Assembly (NCBI RefSeq): GCF_004216555.1
Contig: NZ_SGWQ01000007.1
Location: 1-64,000, forward strand
Source: Herbihabitans rhizosphaerae
Lineage (GTDB): Bacteria; Actinomycetota; Actinomycetes; Mycobacteriales; Pseudonocardiaceae
Reading direction: 5' to 3'
DNA: 64,000 nucleotides
A model generated the notes under the pieces. That model ran no database searches. It saw nothing but the letters and a program-made list of their open reading frames with translations, and was not told the origin of the DNA. The first letter of the stretch is position 1. Each line of letters opens with the position of its first letter. Shown here one piece after another: positions 1 through 19,631 of this stretch. Both the position numbers and the translations under genes were made by a program.

Positions 1-2526
1 CTCCACACCGGACAACTCACCACCACCAACCACCCCTGGCTCACCCACCACACCATCAACAACACCACCCTCCTCCCCGGCACCGCACTCATCGAGATGG
101 CGCTGCGAGCCGGCGAGGACGTGGGTTCCACGGTGATCGAGGAGATGGTGATCGAGGCGCCGTTGGTGATACCCGACGACGGCGCCGTGCACGTCCAACT
201 GCGGGTCGACGAGGCCGACGAGCACGGCAGGCGCCCGTTCGTCATCCGCTCCTGTGACACCGGGCGCGATTACGACAAGGGCGCCTGGGTGCGCAACGCG
301 GCGGGTCAGCTCGTCGCGCGGCGGGAACCACCGGCGCACCATGTTGATCAATGGCCGCCGCGTGGCGCGGAACCGGTCGACCTCACCGACTTCTACGCCG
401 ACCTGCGGGACAAGGGCTACGACTACGGGCCGACGTTCCAGGCCGTACGTGCCGTCTGGCGGCGCGGTGACGAGGTGTTCGCGGACGTCGAGTTCCTCGA
501 GGAAGACGAAGAGAACGCGCACGGCTTCCTGCTACATCCCGCCCTGGCCGACGCGACCCTGCAGGTCACGAACCTCGGGCGGCTCCCGGACGCCGGCGAC
601 AACGAGATGCTGCTGCCGTTCGCGTGGAATCAGGTCACCGTTCACACACCAGGTGCCACCCGACTGCGGGTTCGCGCAACGTACTCGGACGAGGGCGGCG
701 TGTCGGTGGACGCGTTCGACCACTCCGGCACCCCGGTGTACTCCATCGGCTCGCTCGTCCTGCGGGCGACGGCGTCCGACCAGATCGCCGGCGGCGGTCA
801 GCTCAACGACGCGCGCTTTCGAGTGGAGTGGACCGAGCTCGACAGGAGCACGGCCGACGAGGTGCACCACGTCGAGGTCCTCGATCTCACCGGCCCGGCG
901 GGAGAGACCCCGCCGGCCCGCGCGAGGGACCTTGCCTCCCGCGCCCTCGATGCGATGATCTCCTGGCTGTCGAGGGACACCGCCGACGAGGCCCGGCTCG
1001 TTGTGATGACGAGGGACGCCGAACGGGATCCGGCCGCGGCCGCGGTCTGGGGGCTGGTGCGTTCGGCGCAGATGGAGAACCCGGACCGGTTCGTGCTGGT
1101 GGACGTCGACGGCGGCGAGTCGCTCGAGGCGGTGGTGACCTCGGCGGCGCGATCGGGAGAACCGCAGCTGCGAATCCGCGACGACGTCGTGTCAGTACCT
1201 CGCCTTGCCCGCATGCCGTCCGACGGCTCGAACCCGCTCCCCGAGCTGACCGGGACCGCGCTGATCACCGGCGGCACCGGCACGCTCGGCCAGGTCGTCG
1301 CCCGTCACGTGGCGACGACGACCGACGTGAAGCGCATAGTGCTGGTGAGCCGGCGTGGTGCGGACGCGCCGGGCGTGGCGGATCTCGTGGCCGAGCTCGA
1401 CGAGCACGGCGTCACGGTGGACCCGGTCGCCTGCGATGTGGCCGATCGCGTGGCACTGCGCGACGTGGTCAGCGCCATCCCGGATCTCAAGGTCGTCGTG
1501 CACGCTGCCGGGGCGCTCGACGACGGTGTCGTCTCCTCGCTGACACCGGCACGGTTGGACCCGGTGTTCCGCCCGAAGGTGGACGCCGCGTGGCACCTGC
1601 ACGAACTGACCAGCGATCTCGACCTCGCGGCTTTCGTGCTGTTCTCCTCGGGCGCCGGGGTATTCGGTTCTTCGGGCCAGGGGAACTACGCGGCGGCCAA
1701 CGCGTTCCTCGACGGCCTCGCCGGGTTGCGCCGGGCCAACGGGTTGCCCGCGGTGTCTCTCGCGTGGGGCCTGTGGGCGGAGACCAGCGAGCTGACCGCG
1801 GAACTGGACGACACGGACCTGCGACGCAGGGAGCGGGACGGTGTCGTCGGGTTGTCCACTGTGGACGGTTGTCGGTTGTTCGACACAGCACTGCGCACCG
1901 AGTCGGCGGTGCAGGTGCTCACCCGACTTGACCTTCGGCGACTTCGCAGGACGGCCGAGCAGGACGCGCTGCCGCGGCTGTTGCTCGGGCTCGTGCCGCC
2001 CCGTGCCGCCAGGGACAGCAGGGCGACGGGTGTTCGGCGTGGGCGGGACAGCCTTGCCGCGCTGCCGGCAGCGGAGCGCACCAGGGTCCTGCTTGACCAC
2101 GTGTCGTCGCTGGCGTCGACGGTCATGGGCCGCTCGGGTCGGGATGCCGTCGAATCGAAGCGAGCGTTCAAGGACCTCGGTTTCGACTCGCTCATGGCGG
2201 TCGAACTGCGCAACCGGCTGGGCGCGTTCACCGGGCTGCGGTTGCCGGCGACGCTCGTGTTCGACCAGCCGACGCCGGCCGCGATCGCCGCGCACCTCAG
2301 TGAGCTGTTGACTCCGGCCGACTCGGGCACGCCGATTCTCGAGGAACTGGCGCGGCTGGAGCGGACCATGGCCGATCTCGCCGAGGACCGCAGGGCCGAG
2401 GTGGCGCTGCGCCTTCGTGACCTGGCGTCTCGTTGGGAACCGGGCGACACCGGCGAAGTTGATCTCGAAACGGCGAGTGACGACGAGATATTCCGGCTCG
2501 CCGACAGCGAACTCGGCAACGCCTGA
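1..2526 (+). CDS. Type I polyketide synthase, 3' part (DH-KR-ACP)
   Basis: This is the 3' end of a modular PKS gene whose reading frame is open from the first base, so the gene starts outside the window. The visible 841 residues hold a dehydratase (catalytic His at bp 49-51, Asp in DATLQ), a ketoreductase and an ACP (GFDSL, attachment Ser at bp 2188-2190), then a C-terminal docking helix. The KR keeps the GGTGTLG cofactor loop and the FSS and NYAAAN catalytic motifs. It has an LDD motif, the family marker for a B-type alcohol. The DH motif reads [10 protein letters not shown] instead of HxxxGxxxxP, so the usual Gly is Asn. The first 96 bp are strikingly C/A-rich compared with the rest. The gene ends 45 bp before the next PKS gene and should pass its chain to it through the docking domain. 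Confidence 0.93.
1854..1866. repeat. Interspersed 13-bp palindrome GTCCACTGTGGAC (first copy)
   Basis: Exact copies (either central base) occur at 1854, 23152, 50031, 52797, 63395 and 63599. Near copies with GTCCATTGTGGAC or its complement occur at 6183, 38897 and 59697, and GTCCACTGTGGCC at 6636. Six exact copies in 64 kb far exceed chance, even allowing for codon bias. All lie inside genes of unrelated function, usually in the frame encoding Ser-Thr-Val-Asp. Confidence 0.7.
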
Positions 2527-2571
2527 CCAGCGCGCGACGAATCATTTCATCCATCGAAAGACGGGTGTTCC

Positions 2572-5500
2572 ATGTCAGACGACATCAAGCTTCGCGACTA
2601 TCTGAAACGCGTTCTCGGGGATTTGCAGAAATCGAATCAACGGCTGCGTGAAATTGAGGCGGAACGACGGGAGTCGATCGCTGTCGTGGCAATGGGTTGC
2701 CGTTTACCCGGCGGCGTCTCCGACGCGGACGACCTGTGGCGGCTGGTGTCCGGCGGAGCCGACGGGATCTCGGAGTTCCCGCTCGACCGGGGATGGCCGG
2801 ACGACCTCTACGACGCCGACCCGGACGTGGCGGGGAAGACCTACACCCGGCACGGCGGGTTTCTGGACGGTGTCGCCCAGTTCGATGCCGCGTTGTTCGG
2901 GATATCGCCGAGAGAAGCTTTGTCGATGGATCCTCAGCAGCGCAAGGCGCTGGAGGTCTCGTGGGAGCTTCTCGAACGTGCGAGAATGAATCCGCATTCG
3001 CTTTCCGGAAGGAAGGTCGGCGTATTCACCGGGTTGATGTATCACGATTACGGCGCAAACCTTGACCGATTGCCTGACGGGGTCGAAGGGTATTTCGGCA
3101 TCGGCAATTCGGGCAGCGTCACGTCCGGGCGGGTGAGTTATGCCCTCGGGCTGGAGGGGCCTGCTGTCACGCTGGACACGGCGTGTTCCTCCTCGCTGGT
3201 CGCCACCCACCTGGCGTGCCAGGCGCTGCGCGACGGCGACTGCGAGCTGGCGATCGCCGGCGGCGTCACGATCATGGTGACGCCGGAGATGTACGTGGCG
3301 TTCTCTCGCCAGCGGGGCCTCGCGTCGAACGGCCGCTGCAAGGCGTTCGCTGGCGCCGCGGACGGCACCGCGTTGTCCGAGGGCGTGGCCATGTTGCTAC
3401 TCGAGCGCCTGTCGGACGCACGTCGCAACGGCCACCCGGTGCTGGCGGTCGTACGCGGTTCGGCGGTCAACCAGGATGGTGCGTCCAACGGTCTCACCGC
3501 GCCGAGCGGCCCCGCTCAGCAGCGGGTGATCAGGGAGGCGCTGCACAACGCCGGGCTGTCGGTCGCCGACGTCGACCTGGTCGAGGCACATGGGACCGGC
3601 ACAAGGCTGGGCGACCCGATCGAGGCGCAGGCGATTCTCGCGACGTACGGGCGGGACCGGCCGGCCGGGCAGCCAGTCGCGCTCGGGTCGCTCAAGTCCA
3701 ACATCGGGCACACCCAGGCCGCGGCGGGCGTGGCGGGGATGATCAAGGCGATCCAAGCGATCCGGCACGGCGTGCTGCCCAAGACGCTGCACGTCGACGA
3801 ACCGACACCTGAGGTCGACTGGTCGGCGGGTGAGGTCGAACTGCTCGTCGACGAGCGGCCGTGGCCGGAGCGCGACCGGCCGAGGCGGGCGGCGGTGTCG
3901 GCGTTCGGCGTCTCCGGGACCAACGCCCACGTCATCCTGGAGCAGGCGGCGTTGGACGAGGAGGCGGACCGTTCACCGGAGGTGCACCTCGATCCGGTGC
4001 CACTCGCGCTGAGTGCCAAGACGGCCGCCACGCTGCGCGCCCAGGCCGTTCAGCTGCGGGGCCACCTCGATGCCTACGACGAGCTCGACCTCGCGGACGT
4101 CGGGTTCGCACTGAGCACGACCAGAGCCAACCTCGACGAACGCGCCGTGGTTCTCGCGTCGGATCGGTTGCTCGCAGGGAAAGCGCTCGCGTCGCTCGCG
4201 GACGGCGAGTCGTCGCCCGAGATCGTCACAGGTCGCCCGGTCCGGGGCCGGCTGGCGTTCCTGTTCACCGGCCAGGGCAGTCAACGCGTCGGAATGGGGC
4301 GCGAGCTGCACACGGCGTTCCCGGTGTTCGCGGCGGCGTTCGACGCGTGTTGCGCCGAGTTGGACCGGCACCTCGACCGGCCGCTGCGGGACGTGGTGTT
4401 CACCGATCAGGAGGTACTCGACCGGACCGGGTTCACGCAGCCAGCCCTGTTCGCCTTCGAGGTCGCGTCGTTCCGGCTCCTCGAGTCGTGGTCGGTCCGC
4501 CCCGATCTGGTCGCGGGTCACTCGATCGGCGAGCTGGCCGCGGCGCACGTGGCCGGCGTGCTCTCGCTCGGCGACGCCGCGACGCTGGTGGCCGCGCGAG
4601 CCGCGCTGATGGACGCGCTGCCGGACACCGGCGCGATGTGTGCCGTGCAGGCGACCGAGGCCGAGGTCACCCCGCTGCTGGGGCCGCGGGTCGACTTCGC
4701 CGGGATCAACGGCCCCACCTCGGTGGTGGTATCCGGTGACGAGGACGAGGTGAGCCGGGTCGTCGACCACTTCGCGGCCGAAGGCCGCAAGACCAAGCGG
4801 TTGCGGGTGTCGCACGCGTTCCACTCGCCGCACATCGACGACATGCTGGACGAGTATCGGGCGACGGCCGAGCGCCTGATGTTCGCTCGGCCGGACATCG
4901 GGTTCGTCTCGACGGTGACCGGTCGGCAGGTCGACACCGTGCCGGCGAGCTACTGGGTCGAGCAGGTGCGGCGGCCGGTTCGCTTCATGGACGCCGTCGT
5001 GGCACTGCGCGAGCTCGGCGCGACGACGTTCGTTGAGCTCGGGCCGGGCGGTGTGCTCACCGCGCTCGGCGAGGAATGCGTTGACGACCCGTCCACCGCG
5101 TTCGTCCCGTTCAACCGGCACGACGCCAGCGAGCCGTCGGCGGCCGTCGCGGCGCTGAGCACGCTGTTCGTGCGCGGTGCCGCGGTGGACCTCTCCGGAC
5201 CGTTCGCCGGGACCGGCGCGCGCACCGTGCCGCTGCCGACCTACCCGTTCGACCGGCGGCGGTTCTGGCTGGAGGAGCGCGACCGGCGGGCGAACCTGAC
5301 CACTGTCGGCATCGACGAGGTGGCGCACCCGCTGCTCGGCGCGGCCGTCGAGGTGCCGGACGCCGGTTCCGTGGTCCTGACCGGCACCCTCTCGACCGAC
5401 GGGCAGCCGTGGCTCGCCGACCACACGGTCGCCGGCGCCGTGGTGGTGCCCGCGGCGGCCGCCGTGGAGATGGTGATCGAGGCGGGCGGTGAGGTCGACT

Positions 5501-7908
5501 GCCCGGCGCTGGTGGAGCTCGTCGTCGAGCAGCCGCTCGTGGTCCCGGCCGGCGAGGCGGTGCGGGTGCGATTGACCGTGACAGCCGACGGCGATCGGGG
5601 CGACCACACGGTGGCGGTGCACGCCAGTCACGGCGGCGGCCCGTGGACCAGGCACATGACCGCCACCGTGGCGCCGGAGGCGGCCGAGCCCGCCGAGTGG
5701 GCGACCGGAGTCTGGCCGCCGGCCGACGCGCGGCCGATCGACGTGGACGGCTTCTACGAACGGCTCGAGCAGGCCGGATACGGCTACGGGCCGGCATTCC
5801 AATGCGTGCGCGCGGTGTGGGTGCGGGGTGACGAGGTCCTCGCGGACATCACGCTGCCGCAATCCGTGGACGCGGCCGGATACCGCTTGCACCCGGCACT
5901 CCTGGACGCGGCCTCGCACGCGAGGCTCGCCGTGGGCACGGGTGCCGACGAGGCCCGGCTGCCGTTCGCCTGGAGCGGAGTCACGGTGCACACCGCCGCG
6001 GCGACCGCCGTTCGGGTGCGCTCGCGGCCGGACGGCCCGAACGCGGTCTCGCTCGAGATGTTCGACCACACCGGCGCTCCGGTGGCCACCGTGCGGTCGA
6101 TCGACTCGCGCCCGCTGCCACCGGGGTCGCTCGCCGCGCCAGGGGGAGCCGGATCGCTCTTCACGATCACCTGGACTCCTGTGTCCACAATGGACGGAGC
6201 GGGTGAGCCGGCCGTCACGTTGGTCGACCTCACGGAGGCACCGTCGGCGCCGAGCTCGGCCGCAGCAAGGGACCTGGTCGCGACCGTGCTCCTGGAGATC
6301 CAGCAGTGGCTGGACGAGCCGCGCGACGACGCCGCACGGCTCGTGGTGCTGACCGGCCTTCCCGAGGACGTGCCGGGCCTGTCCGCGGTCTGGGGGTTGG
6401 TGCGTGCCGCGCAGGCGGAGCATCCGGACCGGATCGTGCTCGCCGCGGTGGACCAGGACCCGCGCTCGCGCGCCGCGCTGCCCTCGGCGATCGCGACCGG
6501 CGAGCGCCAGCTGGCCATCCGGCACGGCACGGTGTCGGTGCCGGAGCTGACCCGTGCGCCGATCGAGCGCTCACGGCCGCACGGCTGGGACGCCGACGAC
6601 GCGGTTCTGATCACCGGCGGCACCGGCTCGCTCGGGTCCACTGTGGCCAGGCACCTCGCCTCGGCGCACGGTGTCCGGCGGCTCGTGCTGGCGAGCAGGA
6701 GCGGCCGGAACGCGACGGGAGCGGGCGCGCTCGTGGCCGAGCTCGCCGAGGCGGGCTGCACGGCCGAGGTCGTTCGGTGCGACATCGCCGACCGAGACGC
6801 CGTCCGCGAGCTCCTCGCGGGTATCCCGTCGCTGGGCGGGATCGTCCACGCGGCGGGCGTGCTGGACGACGGTGTCCTCGCCAAACAGGATCCGACACGC
6901 CTTGACCGGGTGTTCGGCCCGAAGGCGGACGCGGCGTGGAACCTGCACGAGGAGTCCCTCGCGCTGCGGTTGAACCTGTCGTCGTTCGTGCTGTTCTCCT
7001 CTGCCTCGGCGGTACTCGGCGGCGCGGGCCAGGCGAACTACGCGGCGGCCAACGGATTCCTGGACGGGCTCGCCGGTCTGCGCACGTCGCTGGGCCTGCC
7101 GGCGGTATCGCTCGCCTGGGGCCTGTGGGAACAGGACGGCGGGATGGCCGGCGAGCTCGGCGGGGCCAGCCGGGAGCGCATCGCTCGAAGCGGCATGGCG
7201 GCCCTGTCCGCCGACGAGGGGCTGGCACTGTTCGACGCGGCGATGGCGGCGCGGTCGCCTCGAGTCGTGCCGGCCGCCGTCGACCCGCGTGCGGCCGCGG
7301 AGACCCATCCGATGTTTCGGCGTCTGCTGCCGGTACGCCGGCGGCGCGCCGATTCGCCGGTGCGTTCGCTCACCGACCAACTCGGCCGCATGTCGCCGCC
7401 GGAGCGGGTGGCGCGGTTGCTCGAGCTCGTCCGCTCCGCGGCGGCGACCGTGCTCGGGCACGCCGACTCCGACGCGCTGCAACCCGATCAGGCCTTCAAG
7501 GACCTGGGGTTCGACTCGCTGACCGCGGTCGAGCTGCGCAACCGGCTGGCTGACGCGTCCGGCGTCCGGCTGCCGGCGTCGGCGATCTTCGACAACCCGA
7601 CGCCGATCGCGCTGTCCGACGCACTGCACCAGGCACTCGGCATGGACGAGGGTCCTGCATCAGCGGAGGACCCCGGCGAGGACGAGATCCGCGTGGCGCT
7701 GGCCGCCGTTCCGCTGAGCCGCTACCGCGAGCTCGGGGTGCTGGACGCGCTGCTCGGGTGGCGGCCGTCCGCCGAGAACGAGCCGGATCAGGCGGTGAGC
7801 GCGGAGATCGCGCGCATCGCGGAGATGGACGTCGACGCACTGCTGGAGCGCGCGTTCCACATGACCGATGGCGACGCGGCTGATCGCGAGACCGGGAGGA
7901 AAGCATGA
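2572..7908 (+). CDS. Type I polyketide synthase, one module (KS-AT-DH-KR-ACP)
   Basis: This 1778-residue protein is one complete extension module. An N-terminal coiled docking segment (about 1-32) precedes a KS with the C205/H340/H380 triad. The AT has nucleophile S651 in GHSIGE and HAFH at 748-751, the signature of malonyl-CoA selection. The DH has H951 in [10 protein letters not shown] and D1112. The KR has GGTGSLG near 1346 and LDD at 1431-1433 (B-type). The ACP attachment residue is S1649. KR plus DH should leave an alkene, expected trans from a B-type alcohol. Codon 45 (bp 2704-2706) is the rare TTA leucine codon, suggesting bldA-type control. The first 400 bp are less GC-rich than the rest. 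The stop overlaps the next start in ATGA, so the two PKS genes are translationally coupled. Confidence 0.95.
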
Positions 7909-10900: not shown

Positions 10901-11012
10901 CGAGATCACCGATCTGACTCTGACGCCGATGCTGCTGTTCGACTACCCAACACCCGCGATGGTCGTCGAGCACCTGCACGAGCAGTTGTCGTCCGACGCG
11001 GGCACGGCGTGA
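7905..11012 (+). CDS. Type I polyketide synthase, terminal module (KS-AT-ACP)
   Basis: This 1035-residue PKS carries a docking helix, a KS (nucleophile C204 in DTACSSS), an AT (S660 in GHSVGE) and an ACP (S988), with no reductive domains. It should therefore leave a beta-keto group. There is no thioesterase; the next gene is an amide synthase, so this is probably the last module. The AT specificity position reads RAGH (759-762), neither HAFH (malonyl) nor YASH (methylmalonyl), so extender choice cannot be predicted safely. The ACP motif is GFNSL, with N987 where Asp is usual; Asn is tolerated in the family. Codon 22 (bp 7968-7970) is TTA. The start overlaps the upstream stop by 4 bp. Confidence 0.94.
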
Positions 11013-11054
11013 CGGCCATTCAGTCCCCGTTCACCGAGAAAGAAGGTCTCCACC

Positions 11055-11846
11055 ATGTTCAACGTAGCGAACTACCTTGAGACGATCGGTTATGCCGGTT
11101 CGAATGAACCAACTCTCGACACACTTCGTGCAGTGCAGAAACAGCATCTGATGTCGGTGCCGTTCGACAATTCGGTCAATGCGAACGTCGATCGCGGCTT
11201 GTCCGTGTGGGACGATGTCGACATCGATCCGGACGAGAGCTACGAAAGCATCGTCGTCGGCGGAAGGGGCGGCGTCTGCTACGAACTGAATGGCCTGTTC
11301 CGTTTCCTGCTCACCGGCATGGGGTACGACTACCAGATCCTCGCTGGCGCTGTTCGCCAGGTGACCGGCGGTTTCGGGCCCGACCTCGAGCACATCTTCG
11401 GCTGCGTTCGCCTCGACGGTGAGCTGTGGCTCGTCGACGTCGGAATTGCCGGCCCGCATTACATCGAACCGCTGCGGGTGACGAGCGAGGTACAGGAACT
11501 GTACGGTGTCCGGTACCGGATGTTCGAGAGCGACGGCTACTGGGTCGTGCAGCGGAAACCGAAGACCGGTGATTGGCAGGCCATCTACCGGTTTCGGATG
11601 CAGTTCCGCGACATTGACGAGTGGAACGACCCCGATCCGAGCCTGGTCGAGTTCCCGCCGGGACTCGTCGCGGTGGGAACGTTCATTCACAGCCGGGCGA
11701 CGGAGAACGGTCAAATCGTGCTCATCGGACGGCGCTGTCTCAAGGTCGCCGACGGCGAGGAAAGCGTGCGAGTACTCGTCGACCCGGTCGAGTACAAGGA
11801 AACCGTCAACACCATTCTCAATCCGGAAACACGGGGTGTCTCGTGA
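11055..11846 (+). CDS. Amide synthase, arylamine N-acetyltransferase fold (RifF-like)
   Basis: This 263-residue protein belongs to the arylamine N-acetyltransferase family. The Cys-His-Asp triad is visible as C75 (RGGVCYELN), H113 (LEHIFG) and D128 (WLVDVG). In rifamycin, geldanamycin and other ansamycin clusters a family member directly after the last PKS gene releases the chain by forming a macrolactam with the aromatic starter amine. The position here, 42 bp after a PKS lacking a thioesterase, and the length close to RifF (about 260 residues) argue for that role rather than xenobiotic acetylation. The sequence AAGAAGG lies upstream of the ATG. The stop overlaps the GTG start of the monooxygenase gene. 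The macrolactam assignment is inference from family and context. Confidence 0.9.
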   Translation: MFNVANYLETIGYAGSNEPTLDTLRAVQKQHLMSVPFDNSVNANVDRGLSVWDDVDIDPDESYESIVVGGRGGVCYELNGLFRFLLTGMGYDYQILAGAVRQVTGGFGPDLEHIFGCVRLDGELWLVDVGIAGPHYIEPLRVTSEVQELYGVRYRMFESDGYWVVQRKPKTGDWQAIYRFRMQFRDIDEWNDPDPSLVEFPPGLVAVGTFIHSRATENGQIVLIGRRCLKVADGEESVRVLVDPVEYKETVNTILNPETRGVS

Positions 11847-13432
11847 CATCGGAGGACACGCGCGACGCCGATGTCGCGATTGTCGGATATGGCCCTGTCG
11901 GCCAGGTGCTGGCCATTCTGCTCGCGCAGCGCGGGTGGCGTGTGGTTGTCCTGGAAAAATGGAGCACTCCGTACACGATGCCGCGGGCGGTGTCGTTCGA
12001 TGGCGAGTCGGCCAGAATTCTGGCCGGTGCCGGGATCGACGGTGTGTTCGGTGAGATCGGTGAGCCGTCGCGCGACTACACCTGGAAGAACGCGGCCGGG
12101 GATGTGCTGCTGCACGTCGACATCGCCGAGGACGGTTACTGCGGCTGGCCCGACTCGACGTCGATGTTCCAGCCGGGGCTGGAGGAGGCGCTGGCCGATC
12201 GGGGCGCCGAACTGCCGGGCCTGGAGGTCCTGCGCGGACATGCCGTGGTCGACCTGACCGACCGTGGCGAGGACGTCGAACTGGTCGCGCGGGACGCCGA
12301 AGGAGACCGGCTGGCGCTCACCGCGGCGTGGGTCGTCGGCTGCGACGGCGCGAACAGCTTCGTCAGGGAGCGGATGGGGGCCACCAGCACCGATCTCGGA
12401 TTCGCCAACGACTGGTTGACCTGCGACGTGGTGATGACCGAGCCCCGGGAATTCGCGCCGAACAACCTTCAGGTGTGCGATCCGGCCCGGCCATGCACGG
12501 CGGTGTCTGCCGGGCCGGGACACAGGCGCTGGGAGTTCATGCGTCTGCCCGACGAGAGCCGGGAGGAGTTCGACGATGTCGCCACCGCGTGGCGGCTGCT
12601 CGCGCCGTTCGACGTCACCCCGGACAACGCCGTCCTGCGACGGCATGCCGTGTACACGTTCCAGGCGCGGTTCGTCGACCGGTGGCGGGCGGGGCGGCTG
12701 TTGCTGGCCGGCGACGCCGCGCACCTGATGCCGCCGTTCGCCGGGCAGGGCATGTGCTCGGGATTCCGGGACGCCGCGAACGCGGCGTGGAAGCTCGATC
12801 TGGTGCTACGCGGCCGGGCGCACGAGTCGCTGCTGGACACGTACACCGTCGAGCGCCGCAAGCACGTGCAACACGCCATCACGATGTCGGTCAACCTCGG
12901 CCGGGTGATCTGCCAGCCGGACCCGGCCGCGGCGGCCGACCGGGACGCGGCGATGCTGGCCAACCGGCGACGCACGGCGGGCACGGCCGGCGAGCCCGCC
13001 GTGTACCAACCGCTGACCGACGGTCTGTTGTGGAAGCACCGGGACGCCGTGGCGGCGCTGCGCGGCAGGCTGGTGCCGCAGGGCACGGTCGCCGCGGACG
13101 GTCACTCCGGCCCGTTCGACGACGTGGTCGGCCGGGGTTTCGTGCTCATGACCGTCGACTCGCCGGAACGGCTCGCGCCGGGCAGGCTCGCCCTGTTGGC
13201 GGACCTCGGTGCGCATGTGGTCCAGATCGTGCCCGCGACGGAAGAAGGTCACGGGGCGTCGGCCGTGCGGGACGTGGACGAGGTGTACCTGCCGTACTTC
13301 TCGGCGTCCGGAGCCCGGTGGGTGCTGGTGCGGCCGGACTTCTACGTGTTCGGCGCGGTGGCCGACGAGAGCGCGGCGGAGGACCTTGTCGGCGGGCTCG
13401 GTCAACGGCTGGGGATGCCCCTGGCCGTGTGA
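11843..13432 (+). CDS. FAD-dependent aromatic monooxygenase (MhpA/rif-orf19-like)
   Basis: This is a class A flavoprotein hydroxylase of about 529 residues. It shows the N-terminal dinucleotide motif VAIVGYGPVG, the central GCDGANS (DG motif) and GDAAHLMPPFAGQGMCSG (GD motif, FAD ribityl contact). I chose the GTG at 11843 because it places GxGxxG about 15 residues from the N-terminus and overlaps the amide synthase stop as GTGA, typical of coupling; the frame is open further upstream without a plausible start. In rifamycin the homologous Rif-Orf19 hydroxylates the bound intermediate so that the naphthalene ring can form. If the same holds here, the product is a naphthalenoid ansamycin. A tailoring hydroxylase role is the alternative. 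Confidence 0.9.
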   Translation: MTSEDTRDADVAIVGYGPVGQVLAILLAQRGWRVVVLEKWSTPYTMPRAVSFDGESARILAGAGIDGVFGEIGEPSRDYTWKNAAGDVLLHVDIAEDGYCGWPDSTSMFQPGLEEALADRGAELPGLEVLRGHAVVDLTDRGEDVELVARDAEGDRLALTAAWVVGCDGANSFVRERMGATSTDLGFANDWLTCDVVMTEPREFAPNNLQVCDPARPCTAVSAGPGHRRWEFMRLPDESREEFDDVATAWRLLAPFDVTPDNAVLRRHAVYTFQARFVDRWRAGRLLLAGDAAHLMPPFAGQGMCSGFRDAANAAWKLDLVLRGRAHESLLDTYTVERRKHVQHAITMSVNLGRVICQPDPAAAADRDAAMLANRRRTAGTAGEPAVYQPLTDGLLWKHRDAVAALRGRLVPQGTVAADGHSGPFDDVVGRGFVLMTVDSPERLAPGRLALLADLGAHVVQIVPATEEGHGASAVRDVDEVYLPYFSASGARWVLVRPDFYVFGAVADESAAEDLVGGLGQRLGMPLAV

Positions 13433-13493
13433 TCGTGCCGACGGCGGAGCGCCGTGGCTACGGGTACGGCCGGGGCGGAGCTATGGTCGAACC

Positions 13494-13973
13494 ATGGCGA
13501 CGACGGCTCCGGTGTCACTCGAGACCGACCTGTTGTTCTTGTTGTCGTGGGCAGGGCATGCGCTCGCGACCGAGCAGACGGTCGCCCTCGCGGACGTGGG
13601 GATCACACCTCGCGCGCATTGTGTGCTGTACAAGGCGGTGGAGGGCGACGGTCTCACCCAGACGCGGCTGGCCCAGGTGTGCGGCCTGGACAAGACGACG
13701 ATGGTGGCGACGGTCGACGAGCTCGAGCGAAAGGGGCTTGCCCGCCGCGAGCCGGCCCCTGAGGATCGCCGCGCGCGGATCATCGTGGTGACGCCCGAGG
13801 GGGCGGAGGTGTTGGCCCGGGCGACTCGGATCGTGGCTCGCATTCAGGCCGATGTGCTCGAGCATCTTCCGGAGGATCTCCGGCGAAGTGTCGTCGAGGG
13901 TCTGACGCGCCTGGTCGACGGGCGGCTGGCCAGTCCGGCGGTCTGCGATCGGCCGCCGAGAAGGCGCGGATAA
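13494..13973 (+). CDS. MarR-family transcriptional regulator
   Basis: This 159-residue protein has the MarR winged-helix layout: a dimerisation helix, a recognition region (LAQVCGLDKTTMVATVDELERKG) and a wing with the DRRARI signature (DxRAxxI in the family). The ATG at 13494 gives the standard MarR length; the frame extends further upstream into the monooxygenase gene without domain support. It sits just before an MFS exporter on the same strand, a common pairing in which the regulator represses the pump until the product or an intermediate binds. The 83-bp gap before the exporter, with an AT-richer stretch and TAGGGT at 14013-14018, is the likely promoter and operator, though no clear operator could be picked out. 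Confidence 0.9.
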   Translation: MATTAPVSLETDLLFLLSWAGHALATEQTVALADVGITPRAHCVLYKAVEGDGLTQTRLAQVCGLDKTTMVATVDELERKGLARREPAPEDRRARIIVVTPEGAEVLARATRIVARIQADVLEHLPEDLRRSVVEGLTRLVDGRLASPAVCDRPPRRRG

Positions 13974-14056
13974 TTTGATCGAGAAGAGATAGTTCGACTT
14001 CGGATAATCTGCTAGGGTCGCTTCTGATGTGATGACGATCAGGAGGCGACCGAGGG

Positions 14057-15601
14057 ATGACGTCAATCGCTAACGGCCGATCGCGCTGGCTGGCGTTCAC
14101 CGTGCTGTGTTCCGTGCAGCTGATGGTGATCATCGATACGAGCATCGTGAACATCGCGCTGCGGTCCATCAAGACCGATCTGGGGTTCTCGGACTCCGCC
14201 CTTTCCTGGGTGGTCAACGCGTACACGATCGCCTTCGGTGGTCTGTTGCTCGTGTCCGGGCGGCTCGGTGACCTCATCGGCCGCAAGCGGATGTTCCTCG
14301 CGGGAATCGTGGTGTTCACCGTCGCGTCCACGCTGTGTGGCCTCGCGCAGAACCAGGAGATGCTGATCATCGCCCGGTTCGTGCAGGGGGCCGGCGCCGC
14401 GATGGCGGCCGCCGTGGTGATGGGGATCGTGATCACGATCTTCCGCGAACCGCAGCAACTGGGTAAGGCGATCGCCGCGTTCAGTTTCATAGCGGCGGCC
14501 GGGGGATCGGTAGGTGTGCTCGCCGGCGGCCTGCTCACCGACAGCATCAGCTGGCACTGGGTCTTCTTCATCAACGTGCCGATCGGTATCGCCGCGGTGG
14601 TGTTCGGCATCCCGCTGATCGAGTCGGATCGGGGGCTCGGCTTCGACAAGGGCGTCGACCTGATCGGCGGCGCGTTGGTCACCGCCGGTCTCATGCTGGG
14701 CGTGTACACGATCGTCAAGGTGACCGACTACGGCTGGGGCTCGGCGCACACGTTGGGCCTTGGCGCGGTGTCGGCCGTCCTGCTGGCGCTGTTCGTCGTG
14801 CGCCAGGCGATGGCGTCCGACCCGCTGGTCCCGTTGCGCCTGTTCAGGTCGCGCAACATGTCCGGGGCGAATATCGTCCAACTGCTGCTCGTCGCCGGGA
14901 TGTTCGGGTTCAACTTCCTCGGCGCGCTCTATCTGCAGTTGGTGCTCAACTACTCGCCGACCGTGGCGAGCTTCGCGTTCTTGCCGGTCGCTCTGGTGCT
15001 CGCGGTGGTCTCGCTGGGCATGTCCGCCCGCCTGAACACCCGCTACGGCCCACGGAATGTGTTGCTCGTGGGCCTGCTGTTCATCGCTGCGGCGCTCGCG
15101 CTCGCGGCGAGGGCACCGGTGCAGGCGGACTACGTGATCGACGTGCTGCCGATGGCGGTGCTGCTCGGTCTCGGTGCCGGTCTCGCGATGCCGGCGGTGA
15201 TGGCGCTGGCCATGTCTGGGGCGACACCACAGGACGCCGGCCTCGTCTCGGGTGTGGCGAGCACCTCCGGAATGGTCGGTGGCGCGCTCGGGCTGGCGGT
15301 GCTGACGGCGATCTCCTCAGCACGCACGCAGACCGAGGTGACCGACGGAGTGGATCCGAAGTCGGCCCTCAACAGCGGCTTCCACCTGGCGTTCGGCGTC
15401 TCGGCGGCACTTGTGGTGGCTGCGGTGATCATCGGCTTCTTCGTCCTGGAGTCCACCCCGCCGCAGCAGGGTCTGCCCGGTGGGCCGCCGCCTGGCGAGG
15501 GCGAGGAGGCACCGGAGGCGGTTGCCGGTGCCGAGGAGTCCTCGGCGGACGCGCTGCCGGAAGGGGCGTCCGTCGACGCCGCGGACGAGGTCCGTTCCTG
15601 A
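14057..15601 (+). CDS. MFS drug exporter, DHA2 (EmrB/QacA) family
   Basis: This 514-residue integral membrane transporter has about 14 hydrophobic segments, as expected for the DHA2 family. TM1 carries VIIDTSIVNIAL (the D...IVNVAL family motif), and the TM2-TM3 loop has GRLGDLIGRKR (MFS motif A). The C-terminal 50 residues are a hydrophilic Glu/Ala/Gly-rich tail. GATCAGGAGG lies upstream of the ATG, with AGGAGG as the ribosome-binding site. Its place beside a MarR regulator inside the PKS cluster suggests self-resistance export of the polyketide, comparable to RifP in the rifamycin cluster; the substrate is inference. Confidence 0.92.
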   Translation: MTSIANGRSRWLAFTVLCSVQLMVIIDTSIVNIALRSIKTDLGFSDSALSWVVNAYTIAFGGLLLVSGRLGDLIGRKRMFLAGIVVFTVASTLCGLAQNQEMLIIARFVQGAGAAMAAAVVMGIVITIFREPQQLGKAIAAFSFIAAAGGSVGVLAGGLLTDSISWHWVFFINVPIGIAAVVFGIPLIESDRGLGFDKGVDLIGGALVTAGLMLGVYTIVKVTDYGWGSAHTLGLGAVSAVLLALFVVRQAMASDPLVPLRLFRSRNMSGANIVQLLLVAGMFGFNFLGALYLQLVLNYSPTVASFAFLPVALVLAVVSLGMSARLNTRYGPRNVLLVGLLFIAAALALAARAPVQADYVIDVLPMAVLLGLGAGLAMPAVMALAMSGATPQDAGLVSGVASTSGMVGGALGLAVLTAISSARTQTEVTDGVDPKSALNSGFHLAFGVSAALVVAAVIIGFFVLESTPPQQGLPGGPPPGEGEEAPEAVAGAEESSADALPEGASVDAADEVRS

Positions 15602-15674
15602 GAATTCGCATGGCCCGGACGGGTGAGTGGGTGCTCGAGTCAATTCGAAACATTTGTGATGGGAGAGAGAACGC

Positions 15675-16238
15675 ATGACGAACGTGGCCATCATTATAGG
15701 GAGCACTCGACCAGGGCGAAACGGTGAGACTGTTGCGCGCTGGGTGCACGATGTCGCCGTTAAGCGTGACGACGCCAAGTTCGAGGTCGTCGACCTGAAG
15801 GATTTCGACCTGCCGCTGCTCGACGAGATGATGCCGGCGAGTCTCGGACAGTACGCGAACGAGCACACCAAGAGGTGGGCAGCCAAGGTCGATGAGTTCG
15901 ATGCCTTTGTTTTCGTGACGCCTGAGTACAACCACTCGACGTCTGGAGCGCTGAAGAACGCGATCGACTTCGTCGGCCGTGAATGGGCCAACAAGGCCTG
16001 CGGGTTCGTCAGCTACGGGACGAACGGTGGCACCAGGGCGGTGGAGCACCTTCGCCTCGTGATGGGGGAGCTGCAGGTCGCGGACGTTCGCGCGCAGGTC
16101 GCGCTGTCGCTGTTCACGGACTTCGAGAACTTCACTGTGTTCAAGCCCGGTGCGCACCAGGAGGAGACCCTGACCCAGGTGCTCGACCAGGTTGTCGCGT
16201 GGGGCGAGGCGCTCAAGGTGGTCCGCGCGCCCAACTGA
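15675..16238 (+). CDS. NADPH-dependent FMN/quinone reductase
   Basis: This 187-residue flavodoxin-fold protein of the NADPH-dependent FMN reductase family has the phosphate-binding loop GSTRPGRNGE near the N-terminus and the signature PEYNHSTSGALKNAIDF. It may supply reduced flavin to an oxygenase or reduce a quinone. Next to an aromatic monooxygenase in an ansamycin-like cluster, reduction of a naphthoquinone-type product or protection from redox cycling is plausible, but that is inference. The ribosome-binding site GGGAGAGAGA precedes the ATG. The 73-bp gap from the MFS gene may hold its own promoter. Confidence 0.9.
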   Translation: MTNVAIIIGSTRPGRNGETVARWVHDVAVKRDDAKFEVVDLKDFDLPLLDEMMPASLGQYANEHTKRWAAKVDEFDAFVFVTPEYNHSTSGALKNAIDFVGREWANKACGFVSYGTNGGTRAVEHLRLVMGELQVADVRAQVALSLFTDFENFTVFKPGAHQEETLTQVLDQVVAWGEALKVVRAPN

Positions 16239-16311
16239 GCTTTGGTTACGGATATTCATCACCGGTCGCGTCCGCTCGTGCGGCCGCGACCGGCTCATTG
16301 AATGGATGGCT

Positions 16312-17499
16312 ATGGGAAGTAGAATCCTGTTCCTGAGTATTCCTGCCAGTGGTCACGTATTTCCAACAATCAGTATTGTCGACGAACTCGTGAAGCGGAG
16401 GAACGAGGTTCACTACACCGCTGTCGGGCAACATGCGGAAACGATCGCTGAAACGGGCGCCACCGTCATATCGTATGACTCGGTCGACCCGGTGAGCGTG
16501 GTGACAAGTGACGATTCCGGCCGCGCGCCGCTGGCGTTCTTGCAGGAGAACATCGCGATGCTCGGCGCGATAGAGTCTCATTTCGGCGAGAATCCGCCGG
16601 ACCTCATCGCCTACGACGGCGTGGCGGCGCAGGCCGGCCGGGTGCTTGCGAAGAAGTGGGATCGACCAGCGGTTCAGCTCTCCCCGGTGTTCGCGTCCAA
16701 CGAGCACTACTCGTTCGTCGAGAAGATGATGGAGGCCGCTGGGCCGGTGGACACCGCCAACCCGGCCATGGCCGGGTTCGGCCGGCTCCTGGGCGAGCTG
16801 CTGGCGTCGAACGGGCTCGAGGTCTCGATACCTGAGTTCATGCAGGCGACCGAGAACCTCAACATCGTCTTCGTGCCGCGGGAATTCCAGCCGATGGGCG
16901 AGACGTTCGACGAGCGGTTCGTGTTCGTCGGGCCCTGCCTCGGCGAGCGCGCGTTCCTCGGCGAGTGGGAACCGCCCCAGGACGACCGGCCTTTGGTGCT
17001 CGTGTCGCTGGGCACCGTCAACAACCGCGACGCGTCCTTCTTTGGACGCTGTGTCGAGGCGTTCGGCGATCTCCCGTGGCGCGTGGTCATCTCGGTGGGC
17101 GGCGGCATCGACCCCGCCACCCTCGGGCCACTGCCGGACAATGTCGAGGTGCACCGGTTCATCCCGCACCTGAAGGTGCTCGAGCACGCGTCGGCCGCGG
17201 TGATCCACGGCGGGATGGGGACTCTGATGGAGACGCTGCACTTCGGCTGTCCGACGGTGGTCGTGCCACCGTTCCCGGACGTGATCCCCAACGCGGATCG
17301 GGTGGCCGAGTTGAAGCTCGGCATCGCGCTGCGTCCCGACGACCTGACGCCGGAGCGGCTGCGTGCCGCCCTGCTCGAGGTCGTCGAGGACCGGACCGTG
17401 CTGGAGAGGCTTGCGGAGATGCGGGCGCACACTCGCGCGGCCGGCGGCGCGGTGCGGGCCGCCGACGAGATCGAGGCTTACCTCGGGCGAATCGGCTGA
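16312..17499 (+). CDS. Macrolide-type (GT1/MGT) glycosyltransferase
   Basis: This GT-B glycosyltransferase of about 395 residues has an N-terminal acceptor domain (ILFLSIPASGHVFPT) and a C-terminal nucleotide-sugar domain with VLVSLGTV and the donor-site stretch HASAAVIHGGMGTLMETL followed by GCPTVVVPPFPD. Family members move a sugar from an NDP- or UDP-sugar onto macrolides and other aglycones, sometimes for self-resistance. The start is uncertain: in-frame ATGs lie at 16306 and 16312, and neither has a strong ribosome-binding site. It ends 12 bp from the convergent epimerase gene. The glycosyltransferase plus sugar epimerase suggests that the polyketide or a protective derivative is glycosylated. 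Confidence 0.88.
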   Translation: MGSRILFLSIPASGHVFPTISIVDELVKRRNEVHYTAVGQHAETIAETGATVISYDSVDPVSVVTSDDSGRAPLAFLQENIAMLGAIESHFGENPPDLIAYDGVAAQAGRVLAKKWDRPAVQLSPVFASNEHYSFVEKMMEAAGPVDTANPAMAGFGRLLGELLASNGLEVSIPEFMQATENLNIVFVPREFQPMGETFDERFVFVGPCLGERAFLGEWEPPQDDRPLVLVSLGTVNNRDASFFGRCVEAFGDLPWRVVISVGGGIDPATLGPLPDNVEVHRFIPHLKVLEHASAAVIHGGMGTLMETLHFGCPTVVVPPFPDVIPNADRVAELKLGIALRPDDLTPERLRAALLEVVEDRTVLERLAEMRAHTRAAGGAVRAADEIEAYLGRIG

Positions 17500-17511
17500 C
17501 CTCGGCGGTGG

Positions 17512-18528
17512 TCAGCGCGAGGGTGCGTTGGCCGCCGCCACCGGCTGTTCGGTTCCACCGCCGGACCGGTTGTCCAGGTACCACGACACGGTCTGCTCGA
17601 GCCCGTCCCGCAAAGAGCGCGGCGTGAAGTCGACGATCTCGTCGAACCGGGTGAGATCCAGTAGGCGGCTCGAGGAACCGGTGGGCTTGTCCAGGTCGAG
17701 CCGGACGCGGACAGGGCGATCGAGAATGGCGAACAGCATTTCGGCGAGCTCGACCATCGATACCGGTTCCGGTGCTCCGATATTCAGCGTCTGATGTTTG
17801 TTCGTCTCCACCATTCGCAACGTGGCCGATACCAGGTCCTCGACGTGAACGAATGTTCTGGTCTGGCGCCCGGTTCCCCAGATCTCTACTTCTTCGCCGG
17901 ACACGATCCTGGTGATCATGTTCGGTATTACCCGGCTTATGGTGCCGCCGAAGCTGTCCCGAGGGCCGTATACGTTGGTTGGTCGCGGTAGAAAGACCCG
18001 CATGCCGAACTGACTCCGGTGCAGATCGGCCAAAATCTCGGTGAATATCTTCGAAAGTCGGTAGCCGTTCGTGGAGTACTCCATGTGCTCCCGGTAGTCC
18101 TCGTCCTCGTTGACCGGCCCGCTGGACTTCGCCGTGTACACCTCGGCCGAGCTGATCATGACCACGTCGTCCACGCTCGTACGGCGGGCACAGTTCAGGA
18201 TGTTGGAGGCGATCCGCAGGTTGGCGTCCAGGATCTCCGCGGAATGCTTGGTCTTGAACTCGGTGTTTCCGTCGAGCGCCGCGCAGTGCACGATCGCGTC
18301 GATGCGGGGCGCCACGTACTTGCACGCCGCGAGCAACTCGCCCTGATCGAGCAGGTCTATCCGCAGCGGCCGAGAATTCGCGGAGGTGCGTCGCCGGGCG
18401 TCGCCGTTTCGATGGATGCTGATGACGTTGGCATTCCTGAGTGCCAGTTGTTCGACGAAATGGGAGCCGATGAAGCCGTTCGCGCCGGTGACCATTACGG
18501 TCTTTCCTGACCATCGTGAGTTCTGCAT
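17512..18528 (-). CDS. NAD-dependent epimerase/dehydratase (extended SDR)
   Basis: This extended short-chain dehydrogenase has the Rossmann motif TGANGFIGSHF at the N-terminus, a catalytic Ser in MISSAEVY, YxxxK as GYRLSK, and the PRPTNVYGPRD segment that lines the sugar-nucleotide site in NDP-sugar epimerases and dehydratases. It probably remodels an NDP-sugar for the neighbouring glycosyltransferase; substrate and exact reaction cannot be told from sequence. ATG at 18528 gives about 338 residues with the Rossmann loop close to the start; ATG at 18543 is also in frame, and neither has a good ribosome-binding site. Its promoter region holds a perfect 18-bp palindrome and a CCCCTA motif. Confidence 0.87.
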   Translation of the reverse strand: MQNSRWSGKTVMVTGANGFIGSHFVEQLALRNANVISIHRNGDARRRTSANSRPLRIDLLDQGELLAACKYVAPRIDAIVHCAALDGNTEFKTKHSAEILDANLRIASNILNCARRTSVDDVVMISSAEVYTAKSSGPVNEDEDYREHMEYSTNGYRLSKIFTEILADLHRSQFGMRVFLPRPTNVYGPRDSFGGTISRVIPNMITRIVSGEEVEIWGTGRQTRTFVHVEDLVSATLRMVETNKHQTLNIGAPEPVSMVELAEMLFAILDRPVRVRLDLDKPTGSSSRLLDLTRFDEIVDFTPRSLRDGLEQTVSWYLDNRSGGGTEQPVAAANAPSR

Positions 18529-18544
18529 GGCGATCCATTTCATC

Positions 18545-18562
18545 GTTGTTGTAGACAACAAC
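18545..18562. promoter_or_regulatory. Perfect inverted repeat in the epimerase/ROK divergent promoter region
   Basis: The sequence GTTGTTGTAGACAACAAC is an 8-bp inverted repeat with a 2-bp centre, 16 bp upstream of the epimerase ATG at 18528; the alternative ATG at 18543 would abut it. It looks like an operator for a dimeric regulator placed to block epimerase initiation. No candidate regulator is implied by sequence alone. Confidence 0.45.
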
Positions 18563-18565
18563 GAA

Positions 18566-18602
18566 CGCTAGCTATTCCTAGCGGAATCAAGTAACCCCCT
18601 AT
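18566..18602. promoter_or_regulatory. Hairpin and CCCCCTA motif upstream of ROK kinase and epimerase
   Basis: CGCTAG and CTAGCG (18566-18583) form a perfect 6-bp stem around a 6-nt loop. Immediately downstream is AACCCCCTAT (18593-18602). The same CCCCTA core recurs in the promoter regions of the flavin oxidase and propeller genes, and a related AACCCCCT before the LAL gene, so this is a candidate pathway-activator box. Confidence 0.4.
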
Positions 18603-18722
18603 ATTGCCCGTAGACGTCGACGATGGGTATCGAGTTACCGCCCGATGGGTGTCGCCGTGCAATGCTCGGAAAAGTAATGAGGACGGCGGGCCGGTAGCGG
18701 CGCGGCAATCCGGGGAGTCGAC

Positions 18723-19631
18723 ATCGGATACATTGGTATCGACGTGGGCGGCACCAAAGTCGCGATACGCGTCGAGGATGGTGCCACGTCGAGGGAGACC
18801 ACGTTCCTCTGGGTGGACGCCGGCGATCCCGCGCGCGACGTCGCCGCCTTGTCAGACAGGCTCACCACGATGTTCGGCGAGAGTCGCGGCTCTGTCCGTG
18901 CCGTCGGCGTGGCGATGCCGGCGACCCTGAACCGTGACGGCCGTGTGATCGCCTGGCCCGGCCGCCCGTCCTGGGTCGGGATCGAGGTGCACGCGGCGCT
19001 CGACGCGCTGTTCCCGGGAACCGTCGTTCGCTACGCCGACGACGGCGACCTCGCCGCGGTCGCCGAGGCCGACGCGATCGGCGCCCGCGATGTGGTCTAC
19101 CTCGGGGTCGGTACCGGCGTCGGTGGCGGCGTTGTGCTCGACGGCAGGTCGTTGCCCGGACCCGACGCCGGCTCCTGTGAGGTCGGGCACCTGATCGTGG
19201 ACCGCTCGGGCGCGGTGTGCGACTGCGGCCGGCGTGGCTGTCTGCAGGGGCAGGCGTCCGGGCCGGCGACGTTGCGGCGCGCGGCCGAATCGCGCGGCGA
19301 GGAGGTCACCTTCTTCGCTCTGCGCGACGCCTGGCTGGCGCGTGCGCCGTGGGCCGTTTCGGCCGTGCGGGACAGCTGTGCCTCGATCGCCGCCGCGGTG
19401 ATCGGCCTCGCTGAACTGGTCGGGGTTCCGCACGCGGTGATCGGCGGCGGATTCGCCAGCTCTCTTCCCGGGTTCACCGACGAGGTGGCCACGCAGATCG
19501 CCGACCTGCGCCGGGCGGGCGTGCCGACACCACGGGTGACCGAGGCGGTGTTCGGCGGGCTGTCGTCGTTGCGCGGCGCGGTCCTGCTCGCACGCCGGTC
19601 GCCGACGGCGTTCCGGGCGGCCACGGCATGA
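18723..19631 (+). CDS. ROK-family sugar kinase (candidate kanosamine kinase, RifN-like)
   Basis: This ROK kinase has the ATP phosphate motif IGIDVGGTK at the very N-terminus, a catalytic-Asp segment (YADDGDLAAVAEA) and the zinc signature H...CDCGRRGC. The only ordinary start codon in frame, GTG 18744, would delete the conserved Asp of DVGGTK. No ATG, GTG or TTG exists between that point and a stop at 18678. I therefore place the start at ATC 18723, 5 nt after GGGGAG, giving 302 residues. In ansamycin clusters a ROK enzyme (RifN) phosphorylates kanosamine for AHBA starter synthesis; length and context fit, but glucokinase or a regulator-like ROK is possible. The stop overlaps the next gene as ATGA. 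Confidence 0.82.
   Translation: MGYIGIDVGGTKVAIRVEDGATSRETTFLWVDAGDPARDVAALSDRLTTMFGESRGSVRAVGVAMPATLNRDGRVIAWPGRPSWVGIEVHAALDALFPGTVVRYADDGDLAAVAEADAIGARDVVYLGVGTGVGGGVVLDGRSLPGPDAGSCEVGHLIVDRSGAVCDCGRRGCLQGQASGPATLRRAAESRGEEVTFFALRDAWLARAPWAVSAVRDSCASIAAAVIGLAELVGVPHAVIGGGFASSLPGFTDEVATQIADLRRAGVPTPRVTEAVFGGLSSLRGAVLLARRSPTAFRAATA

Follow-up and report, generated by a model that had tools for sequence, protein, structure and literature searches.

The first 64,000 bases of contig NZ_SGWQ01000007.1 (contig C7) of Herbihabitans rhizosphaerae, called the window here, were analysed, and the genes at their left end belong with near certainty to an ansamycin cluster derived from 3-amino-5-hydroxybenzoic acid (AHBA). 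It is highly probable that bases 1 to about 31084 of the window and contig C13 (C13:1-13522) hold the right and the left half of one AHBA-primed pentaketide ansamycin cluster. The hallmarks of such a cluster are found on the two pieces together: an AHBA synthase with an aminoshikimate cassette, a loading module with an AMP-binding domain, and a RifF-type amide synthase without a thioesterase. Moreover, the gene of a candidate kanosamine kinase apparently shares one operon with a copper module, in which a Met/His-rich protein, a giant MnxG-type multicopper oxidase and a CopD-like protein are predicted. A preliminary description of positions 1-19631 had suggested an ansamycin-type cluster, and this is borne out by the AHBA genes and the AMP-binding loading module at the end of C13, the join to the window being drawn from domain matches. 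The linked genes extend past 19631, up to about 31084.

Two probable halves of one ansamycin cluster

The genome comprises 6.63 Mb in 25 contigs. Base 1 of contig C7 falls inside a polyketide synthase (PKS) gene and the contig has no DNA further left, so the missing part was sought on the other contigs. Module 4 of the window recognised PKS genes on C7, C11, C13, C4 and C10 and one weak ketosynthase (KS) match on C15, and its dehydratase-ketoreductase-acyl carrier protein (DH-KR-ACP) region gave one weak match on C12. At base 1 of C13 a KS and an ACP run off the contig end on the minus strand, and homologues of RifK, RifL, RifM, RifG, RifJ and RifI span at most 11 kb at this end. The RifK-like protein scored 637.7 bits with PDB entry 1b9h and 636.3 bits with 1b9i, both AHBA synthase, and the next other protein reached 193 bits. 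The PKS begins there with an A-KR0-ACP loading module, whose KR, as read from the translation, lacks the GxGxxG motif; an inactive KR0 is also described for the tropansamycin (tpm) cluster in the part of the paper covered (PMC13000494). The roles of RifG, H, J, K, L, M and N in the AHBA route have been described (PMC8788734, covered in part).

The pieces on C13 and C7 are collinear, by domain matches, with complete relatives, and the end of C13 would join the start of the window. The same-point distance, obtained by subtraction, is about 7.0 kb in Saccharopolyspora hirsuta (G351) and in G289, 8.0 kb on plasmid NZ_CP108007.1 of Streptomyces sp. NBC_00335 and 6.1 kb in Kutzneria sp. 744 (G223), and the unassembled DNA between C13 and C7 is put at about 6-8 kb. 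No small contig filling this gap was recognised, C16-C25 giving no match in the searches with module 4 and DH-KR-ACP. An assembly break caused by a long exact repeat was considered and rejected: compared with window 1-12000 and with eight pieces of C11, the opening 400 bases of C13 and of C7 shared exact stretches of at most 13 and 19 bases, which gives no sign of a simple collapsed repeat among those pieces. A second, separate multi-module type I PKS of the same genome lies at C11:68437-133221, with a DegT aminotransferase at 111394.

A stand-alone lantibiotic-dehydratase-C-like (LantC-like) protein sits beside rifG on C13, and PF14028 was matched by three of four aligned homologues. It had a match at E <= 1e-5 in 18 of 386 genomes of the host's family. 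The strong matches (E <= 1.3e-14, a limit chosen after inspection of the list) number 12 with its own included; 11 of them have an AHBA synthase at most 50 kb away and G155 has none, and an AHBA synthase is absent from all six weakly matching genomes (Fisher p about 2e-11 for the strong ones). One match lies on a contig of 99,945 bases of Amycolatopsis vancoresmycina which probably holds the kanglemycin amide synthase. A PDB search with the LantC-like protein gave no match up to E=1.

Module number of the polyketide synthase

A loading module and four extension modules, the last of them KS-acyltransferase (AT)-ACP, were found in S. hirsuta, G289 and NBC_00335; in Kutzneria sp. 744 four KS domains were seen, with some other domains unrecovered. 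The ACP/KS spacing in S. hirsuta, G289 and Kutzneria sp. 744 suggests a split into PKS A (loading, modules 1 and 2), B (module 3) and C (module 4), with which the annotated genes of NBC_00335 agree, the third gene being unannotated there. The DH-KR part of the gene cut by the window start matched module 2 best in all four relatives, with module 2 ahead of module 1 by 526 to 381 bits in S. hirsuta (module 3, 511), 464 to 335 in G289, 491 to 299 in NBC_00335 and 273 to 58 in Kutzneria sp. 744. Its ACP tail and docking region likewise matched the end of PKS A (module 2) best in four of four, and the N-terminal docking region of PKS B matches that of module 3 in S. hirsuta, G289 and Kutzneria sp. 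744. At the other side of the gap, the KS fragment at the C13 end is closest to KS1 in S. hirsuta, G289 and G372, with KS1 and KS4 level in Kutzneria sp. 744; its last 120 residues favour KS1 in three of four relatives (S. hirsuta, G289, NBC_00335). Modules 3 and 4 are whole, and modules 1 and 2 present in pieces, when the window and C13 are taken together. Since the fragments match modules 1-4 of four-module relatives, the product is likely a pentaketide of AHBA and four extenders, with loading and modules 1-2 assigned to PKS A, module 3 to B and module 4 to C, so that AHBA would be extended four times.

Several points weigh against this reading. The halves lie on different contigs, the intervening DNA is absent from the assembly, and modules 1-2 are not visible whole. 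When only the KR of the cut fragment is compared, module 3 scores above module 2 in two of three relatives (249 versus 232 bits in S. hirsuta, 234 versus 200 in G289), with module 1 the lowest, and the last 120 residues of the C13 KS slightly favour KS4 over KS1 in Kutzneria sp. 744 (179 versus 176 bits). Relatives with one or two modules exist, so another module number is conceivable. Further, no second class II 3-deoxy-D-arabino-heptulosonate 7-phosphate (DAHP) synthase, of RifH type, was found in the genome, the sole class II enzyme being on C4, whereas a class II DAHP synthase occurs in 14 of 25 related regions, including all five seen over 60 kb. The RifH-type step is probably supplied by the lone class II enzyme.

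It is unlikely that the same ansamycin cluster has only three extension modules, with C13 joining C7 within module 1 to give a tetraketide, or that it has more than four. The gap is unassembled and one-module (G352) and two-module relatives (G372, Actinomadura L111 and L112) are at hand, but the scores of the cut DH-KR for module 2 over module 1 and the uniform match of the ACP tail and docking region to the end of PKS A speak against another count; the direct C13-C7 join in particular is disfavoured by the KS, DH-KR and ACP-tail matches. A rifamycin-like naphthalenic ansamycin of about ten modules is very improbable: the amide synthase, the Orf19-type hydroxylase and the AHBA cassette would suit it and the gap is unread, but it is to modules 1-4 of four-module relatives that the fragments correspond, and no additional module of this PKS could be recognised on any other part of the assembly.

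The last module had been described as free of KR, DH and enoylreductase (ER) domains, and this holds for the four-module pentaketide PKS proposed here: the region 7905-11012 reads KS-AT-ACP and gave no KR, DH, ER or thioesterase match. Its AT carries a RAGH motif, which is found in one of the 31 ATs compared, namely this one; NBC_00335 has HAFH four times, and all four ATs of S. hirsuta have YASH. HAFH is taken by us to mark malonyl-type and YASH methylmalonyl-type ATs. In the DH of module 2, N replaces G in the HxxxGxxxxP motif.

The wider survey also gave clusters of other lengths. G352 (L118, L119), a one-contig genome with the same genus label as S. hirsuta, has the amide synthase but a loading module and only one extension module (KS-AT-ACP), which is either a real shortening or an assembly collapse. 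G372 (L126-L128) and Actinomadura L111 and L112 hold AHBA-type clusters with loading and two modules before the amide synthase. Long AHBA-primed PKS clusters are present in G004 (L179, L201, L202) and G336 (L180, L205, L206), with no amide synthase match at E <= 1e-20.

Amide synthase and hydroxylase

The preliminary description had reported a PKS end without thioesterase, followed by a protein of arylamine N-acetyltransferase (NAT) fold with the triad C75/H113/D128; Pfam and an alignment of 13 sequences agree with this, and the three residues are invariant across the 13 NATs (own and 12 relatives). The protein is predicted to be the RifF-type release enzyme. In 390 genomes of the host's family, with AHBA synthase scored at E <= 1e-100, 31 matches to it (own excluded) reached E <= 1.6e-36, and 30 of these have an AHBA synthase within 55 kb, G194 having it on another contig. 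The weaker matches listed (1.6e-28 to 1e-20) are in no case near an AHBA synthase. A tree of 33 NATs, in which an in-frame stop of row L105 was read as X, was not decisive and placed the window protein in no well-supported small group; two of its rows have no AHBA link, namely the second NAT of the genome, which took the midpoint root position, and G062, whose long branch fell among the AHBA-linked rows. The assignment as amide synthase hence rests on the linkage to AHBA synthase, and it is by this linkage, not by phylogeny, that the grouping with amide synthases is supported. The nearest named amide synthases are those of the NBC_00335 plasmid (56% identity), S. hirsuta (52-53%), Streptomyces radicis (52%) and Streptomyces sp. 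TSRI0107 (51%).

A general xenobiotic NAT beside an unrelated PKS is rejected as exceedingly improbable on account of the AHBA synthase linkage in 30 of 31 relatives and the weakness of the other NAT-like matches in the genome (28-29% over about 160 residues, 39-43% over about 80-residue pieces, at most 38.5 bits), although the fold is that of a NAT, the best NCBIfam match is N-hydroxyarylamine O-acetyltransferase (far below cut-off, 78.9 versus 493 bits) and the tree does not cleanly split AHBA-linked from other NATs.

The amide synthase gene overlaps that of a class A flavin hydroxylase, as described earlier, with the GTG start at 11843 and the NAT stop at 11846. By position the hydroxylase is presumably of the Rif-orf19/Nam7/TpmE type. 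A hydroxylase of 53-62% identity directly follows the amide synthase in 19 of 25 named loci; of the remaining six, L106 and L109 have a 29% match and four have none in the DNA examined. The pairing had been taken as known from rifamycin-type clusters, and it is present, but it is not specific to rifamycin in view of these 19 loci and of the TpmD amide synthase and TpmE hydroxylase, which pair in a pentaketide ansamycin cluster (PMC13000494, covered in part). In Kutzneria sp. 744 (L124) the hydroxylase was matched only in pieces, at 34200-34800, beside the last ACP, a position normally taken by the amide synthase, which here is found about 14 kb from these pieces, adjoining a stray ACP. This locus is either a rearranged cluster or affected by sequence errors.

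Kanosamine kinase candidate and copper module

The ROK kinase, for which a role as kanosamine kinase of the AHBA route had been raised, is a RifN candidate: it shares 48-57% identity with the ROK genes that occur in AHBA clusters (23 of 25 regions, together with NBC_00335 and L113). Its best PDB match scored only 62.6 bits, and its gene lies on C7 with the RifK-like synthase on C13. No other RifN candidate is known in the genome, in which no genome-wide ROK search was made.

The gene for the Met-rich protein overlaps the ROK gene, the oxidase gene starts 15 bases past it, and the copD start overlaps the oxidase stop; the copper module is apparently in one operon with the kanosamine kinase gene. 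The Met-rich protein is distantly DUF4352-like, with a score of 11.6 bits (E 0.34) that is not significant, and it shares 41% identity with its NBC_00335 counterpart at 20.5 bits, below the cut-off. The oxidase aligned with MnxG (PDB 9bxa) at E=6.8e-91 over all four HxH motifs, which lie at residues 603-608, 674-676, 936-938 and 1052-1054 and whose histidines are conserved in NBC_00335. It is called MnxG-type, a homologue and not MnxG, since it falls far under the NCBIfam MnxG equivalog cut-off (146.8 versus 3100 bits). Five hydrophobic stretches at the N-terminus make it probable that the enzyme is anchored and works outside the cytoplasm.

The NBC_00335 oxidase also has 1772 residues and is 69% identical over 1735 aligned residues. 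The order ROK, Met-rich protein, oxidase and CopC-CopD is kept there, with a TGATG overlap of the ROK stop and the next start; on the other side of ROK come a LantC-like gene and rifG, the latter followed by a YcnI gene. When 72,556 plasmid records were searched with the oxidase, 21 had a match; one is at 69%, and the other 19 listed are at most 28.2% identical where they cover at least 60% of the query, and at most 35% where short.

Our tentative proposal, which we hold to be somewhat less probable than not, is that a free-standing MnxG-type cassette was recruited into the ansamycin cluster as a surface tailoring enzyme oxidising or coupling an exported hydroquinone or aminophenol macrolactam. 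Two results count against it: of the 11 plasmid records in which an AHBA synthase was found (E <= 1e-100), only that of NBC_00335 has the oxidase, and a MnxG-type oxidase was found in no other AHBA region scanned, many of which were seen for at most 20 kb. The copper module may instead stand outside the pathway, as a free-standing metal-oxidation cassette which landed beside rifN and handles manganese or copper, and this comes close to an even chance. The lack of the oxidase in the other AHBA regions scanned agrees with it, as do the name of MnxG as a manganese oxidase and a Rubrobacter marinus plasmid, on which a 28% relative of the oxidase is accompanied by DUF4352, YcnI, CopC and CopD genes and by no antibiotic genes in the 19 kb shown. 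On the other hand, the ROK/Met-rich overlap and the order ROK-Met-rich-oxidase-CopD are kept in two clusters with amide synthases sharing only 56% identity, and the next long match among the plasmid matches listed is at 28%, as against 69%. A Pseudonocardia plasmid has a relative of the oxidase without DUF4352, YcnI, CopC or CopD genes. The oxidase is a real, conserved neighbour, for which the tailoring role is offered as a testable hypothesis.

Other genes of the window

The MarR regulator, the major facilitator superfamily (MFS) transporter and the flavin mononucleotide (FMN) reductase also lie within 1-19631 and had gone unnamed. NBC_00335 and Kutzneria sp. 744 share the MarR gene, near the amide synthase in NBC_00335, and the MFS gene. 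The glycosyltransferase and the sugar epimerase had been pointed out as differences from rifamycin; both genes are present, but their cluster membership, and that of the FMN reductase, is unproven, since a scan of the related regions gave no homologue above 60 bits for any of the three, which may have been added locally. The glycosyltransferase scored 252 bits with OleI and 24 bits with the rifamycin-inactivating Rgt, and perhaps serves self-protection.

The berberine-bridge-type (BBE) oxidase is 53% identical to that of NBC_00335, 47% to that of Kutzneria sp. 744 (beside the amide synthase), 39% to that of G361 and 27% to that of G212. In Streptomyces seoulensis A01 the BBE-like enzyme AsmF, from the ansaseomycin cluster, carries out an alcohol oxidation according to the text covered (PMC11375781), so a BBE-type enzyme in an ansamycin cluster is not new. 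Each of the six AHBA clusters obtained over roughly 60 kb or more (G351, G352, G289, G223, G372 and NBC_00335) has a homologue of the LAL-type regulator, as do several others, and the regulator gene is the probable right edge of the present cluster.

Table 1. Genes and domains of the proposed cluster. Coordinates refer to the window unless a contig or locus is named; locus L016 is C13:1-20000. DHQ, dehydroquinate; SARP, Streptomyces antibiotic regulatory protein; LAL, large ATP-binding regulator of the LuxR family; FAD, flavin adenine dinucleotide; NAD, nicotinamide adenine dinucleotide.
Feature	Location	Strand	Remarks
PKS start, A-KR0-ACP-KS	L016:2-3976	-	AMP-binding, AMP-binding_C, KR-like, PP-binding, KS; runs off contig
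LantC-like protein	L016:4249-5097	+	PF14028, 46.3 bits
DHQ synthase, RifG-like	C13: about 5126-6178	+	second copy, first on C2
Phosphatase, RifM-like	C13:6183-6950	-	TIGR01454 'AHBA synthesis associated protein', 345 bits vs cut-off 246.65
Gfo/Idh oxidoreductase, RifL-like	C13:6886-8007	-
DegT aminotransferase, RifK-like AHBA synthase	C13:8004-9314	-	PDB 1b9h, 1b9i
DHQ dehydratase, RifJ-like	C13:9439-9873	+	second copy, first on C2
Shikimate-dehydrogenase-like, RifI-like	C13:9828-10688	-
SARP-type regulator	C13:10685-13522	-
PKS A 3' part, DH (partial)-KR-ACP-docking, assigned module 2	1..2526	+	Pfam; cut by contig end
PKS B, module 3, KS-AT-DH-KR-ACP	2572..7908	+	AT motif HAFH; KR with LDD motif
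PKS C, module 4, KS-AT-ACP	7905..11012	+	AT with GHSVG and RAGH motif
Amide synthase, RifF-like NAT	11055..11846	+	PF00797, 144.5 bits; C75/H113/D128
Class A FAD hydroxylase, GTG start	11843..13432	+	NF004829, 652 bits vs cut-off 390; GTGA overlap with amide synthase stop
MarR regulator	13479..13973 (start approximate)	+	59% NBC_00335; 63% Kutzneria sp. 744
DHA2-type MFS efflux pump	14057..15601	+	57% NBC_00335; 51% and 68% to two Kutzneria sp. 744 copies
NADPH-dependent FMN reductase	15675..16238	+
MGT/OleI-type glycosyltransferase	16306..17499	+	TIGR01426, 403 bits vs cut-off 260
NAD-dependent sugar epimerase/dehydratase	17512..18561	-
ROK kinase, RifN-like kanosamine kinase candidate	18744..19631	+
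Membrane-anchored Met/His-rich protein, 188 aa	19628..20194	+	distantly DUF4352-like; ATGA overlap with ROK gene
Giant MnxG-type multicopper oxidase, 1772 aa	20210..25528	+	four HxH motifs, N-terminal hydrophobic segments
CopD-like copper membrane protein	25525..26535	+	start overlaps oxidase stop
BBE-type FAD oxidase	26565..28112	-
LAL-type LuxR regulator (AAA_16 + GerE)	28331..31084	-	probable right edge

Comparison with known systems

The rifamycin (rif) cluster, which we take to share the A-KR0-ACP start and the RifF amide synthase, has ten modules, whereas probably four are present here, where no dedicated RifH was found and an extra copper module occurs. The AHBA logic of RifK, L, M, N, G, J and I is common to both (PMC8788734, covered in part). 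The closest likeness is seen with the NBC_00335 cluster (about 73.9-136.3 kb of the plasmid), which, beside the matching PKS with malonyl-type ATs, copper module, MarR and MFS genes, shares the amide synthase (56%), hydroxylase (56%), ROK kinase (57%), CopD (44%), BBE oxidase and LantC-like protein (34%). It differs in having its own class II DAHP synthase, two P450 genes and a CopC-CopD fusion, in lacking a homologue of the glycosyltransferase, FMN reductase and epimerase, and in a module-4 AT with HAFH in place of RAGH. The S. hirsuta cluster (NZ_VWPH01000004.1) is alike in its loading and four modules, PKS A/B/C split, amide synthase, LantC-like protein (33%) and ROK kinase (53%), whereas its four ATs are of the YASH kind and no copper oxidase was found in the 100 kb scanned.

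The tpm cluster, compared by description only, resembles the present one in its AHBA genes, three PKS genes, TpmD, TpmE, LAL and SARP regulators and KR0; its extender order is C3-C2-C3-C3, whereas module 3 here is of malonyl type and module 4 has RAGH, and no copper oxidase is named in the text covered, which describes its five redox genes in part (PMC13000494). The cebulactam/shengliangmycin system, also compared by description only, yields AHBA macrolactams for which conversion of a p-dihydroxybenzene to a 1,4-benzoquinone is proposed, the reaction suggested here for the copper enzyme; no copper oxidase is named in the text covered (PMC13302746). MnxG itself (PDB 9bxa) is likewise a giant multicopper oxidase with the four HxH motifs, but its chain has 1227 residues as compared to 1772 here, and the N-terminal hydrophobic segments and the antibiotic cluster setting belong to the present enzyme. 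In the parts covered of PMC13000494, PMC13302746, PMC11213898, PMC8788734 and PMC11375781, and among the titles and abstract openings listed from the open-access literature, no multicopper oxidase was reported in an ansamycin cluster, and the one named in the covered part of PMC11375781 is fungal. A search of open-access papers for tri-, tetra- and diketide ansamycins gave no match.

Proposed pathway and implications

From the gene content, AHBA would be made by enzymes of the RifL, K, M, N, G and J types and loaded on A-KR0-ACP. After chain extension, the amide synthase would move the pentaketide from the last ACP to C75 and use the aryl amine to close the lactam. The flavin hydroxylase may then add a ring oxygen to give a hydroquinone or aminophenol, the BBE-type oxidase may act on an alcohol or form a ring, and the MFS pump would export the product. 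In the least certain step, the copper module might act at the cell surface on the exported hydroquinone or aminophenol, turning it into a quinone or coupling it.

Our study reflects that AHBA clusters occur with one, two, four and more modules, several of them with a LantC-like protein beside them, and it adds a cluster of probable pentaketide type whose last AT carries the RAGH motif. It is unusual that in two distant actinobacteria the gene of a giant MnxG-type oxidase apparently shares an operon with a starter-unit gene. Should the oxidase use the product as substrate, ansamycins of this kind would acquire their quinone outside the cell through a metal oxidase.

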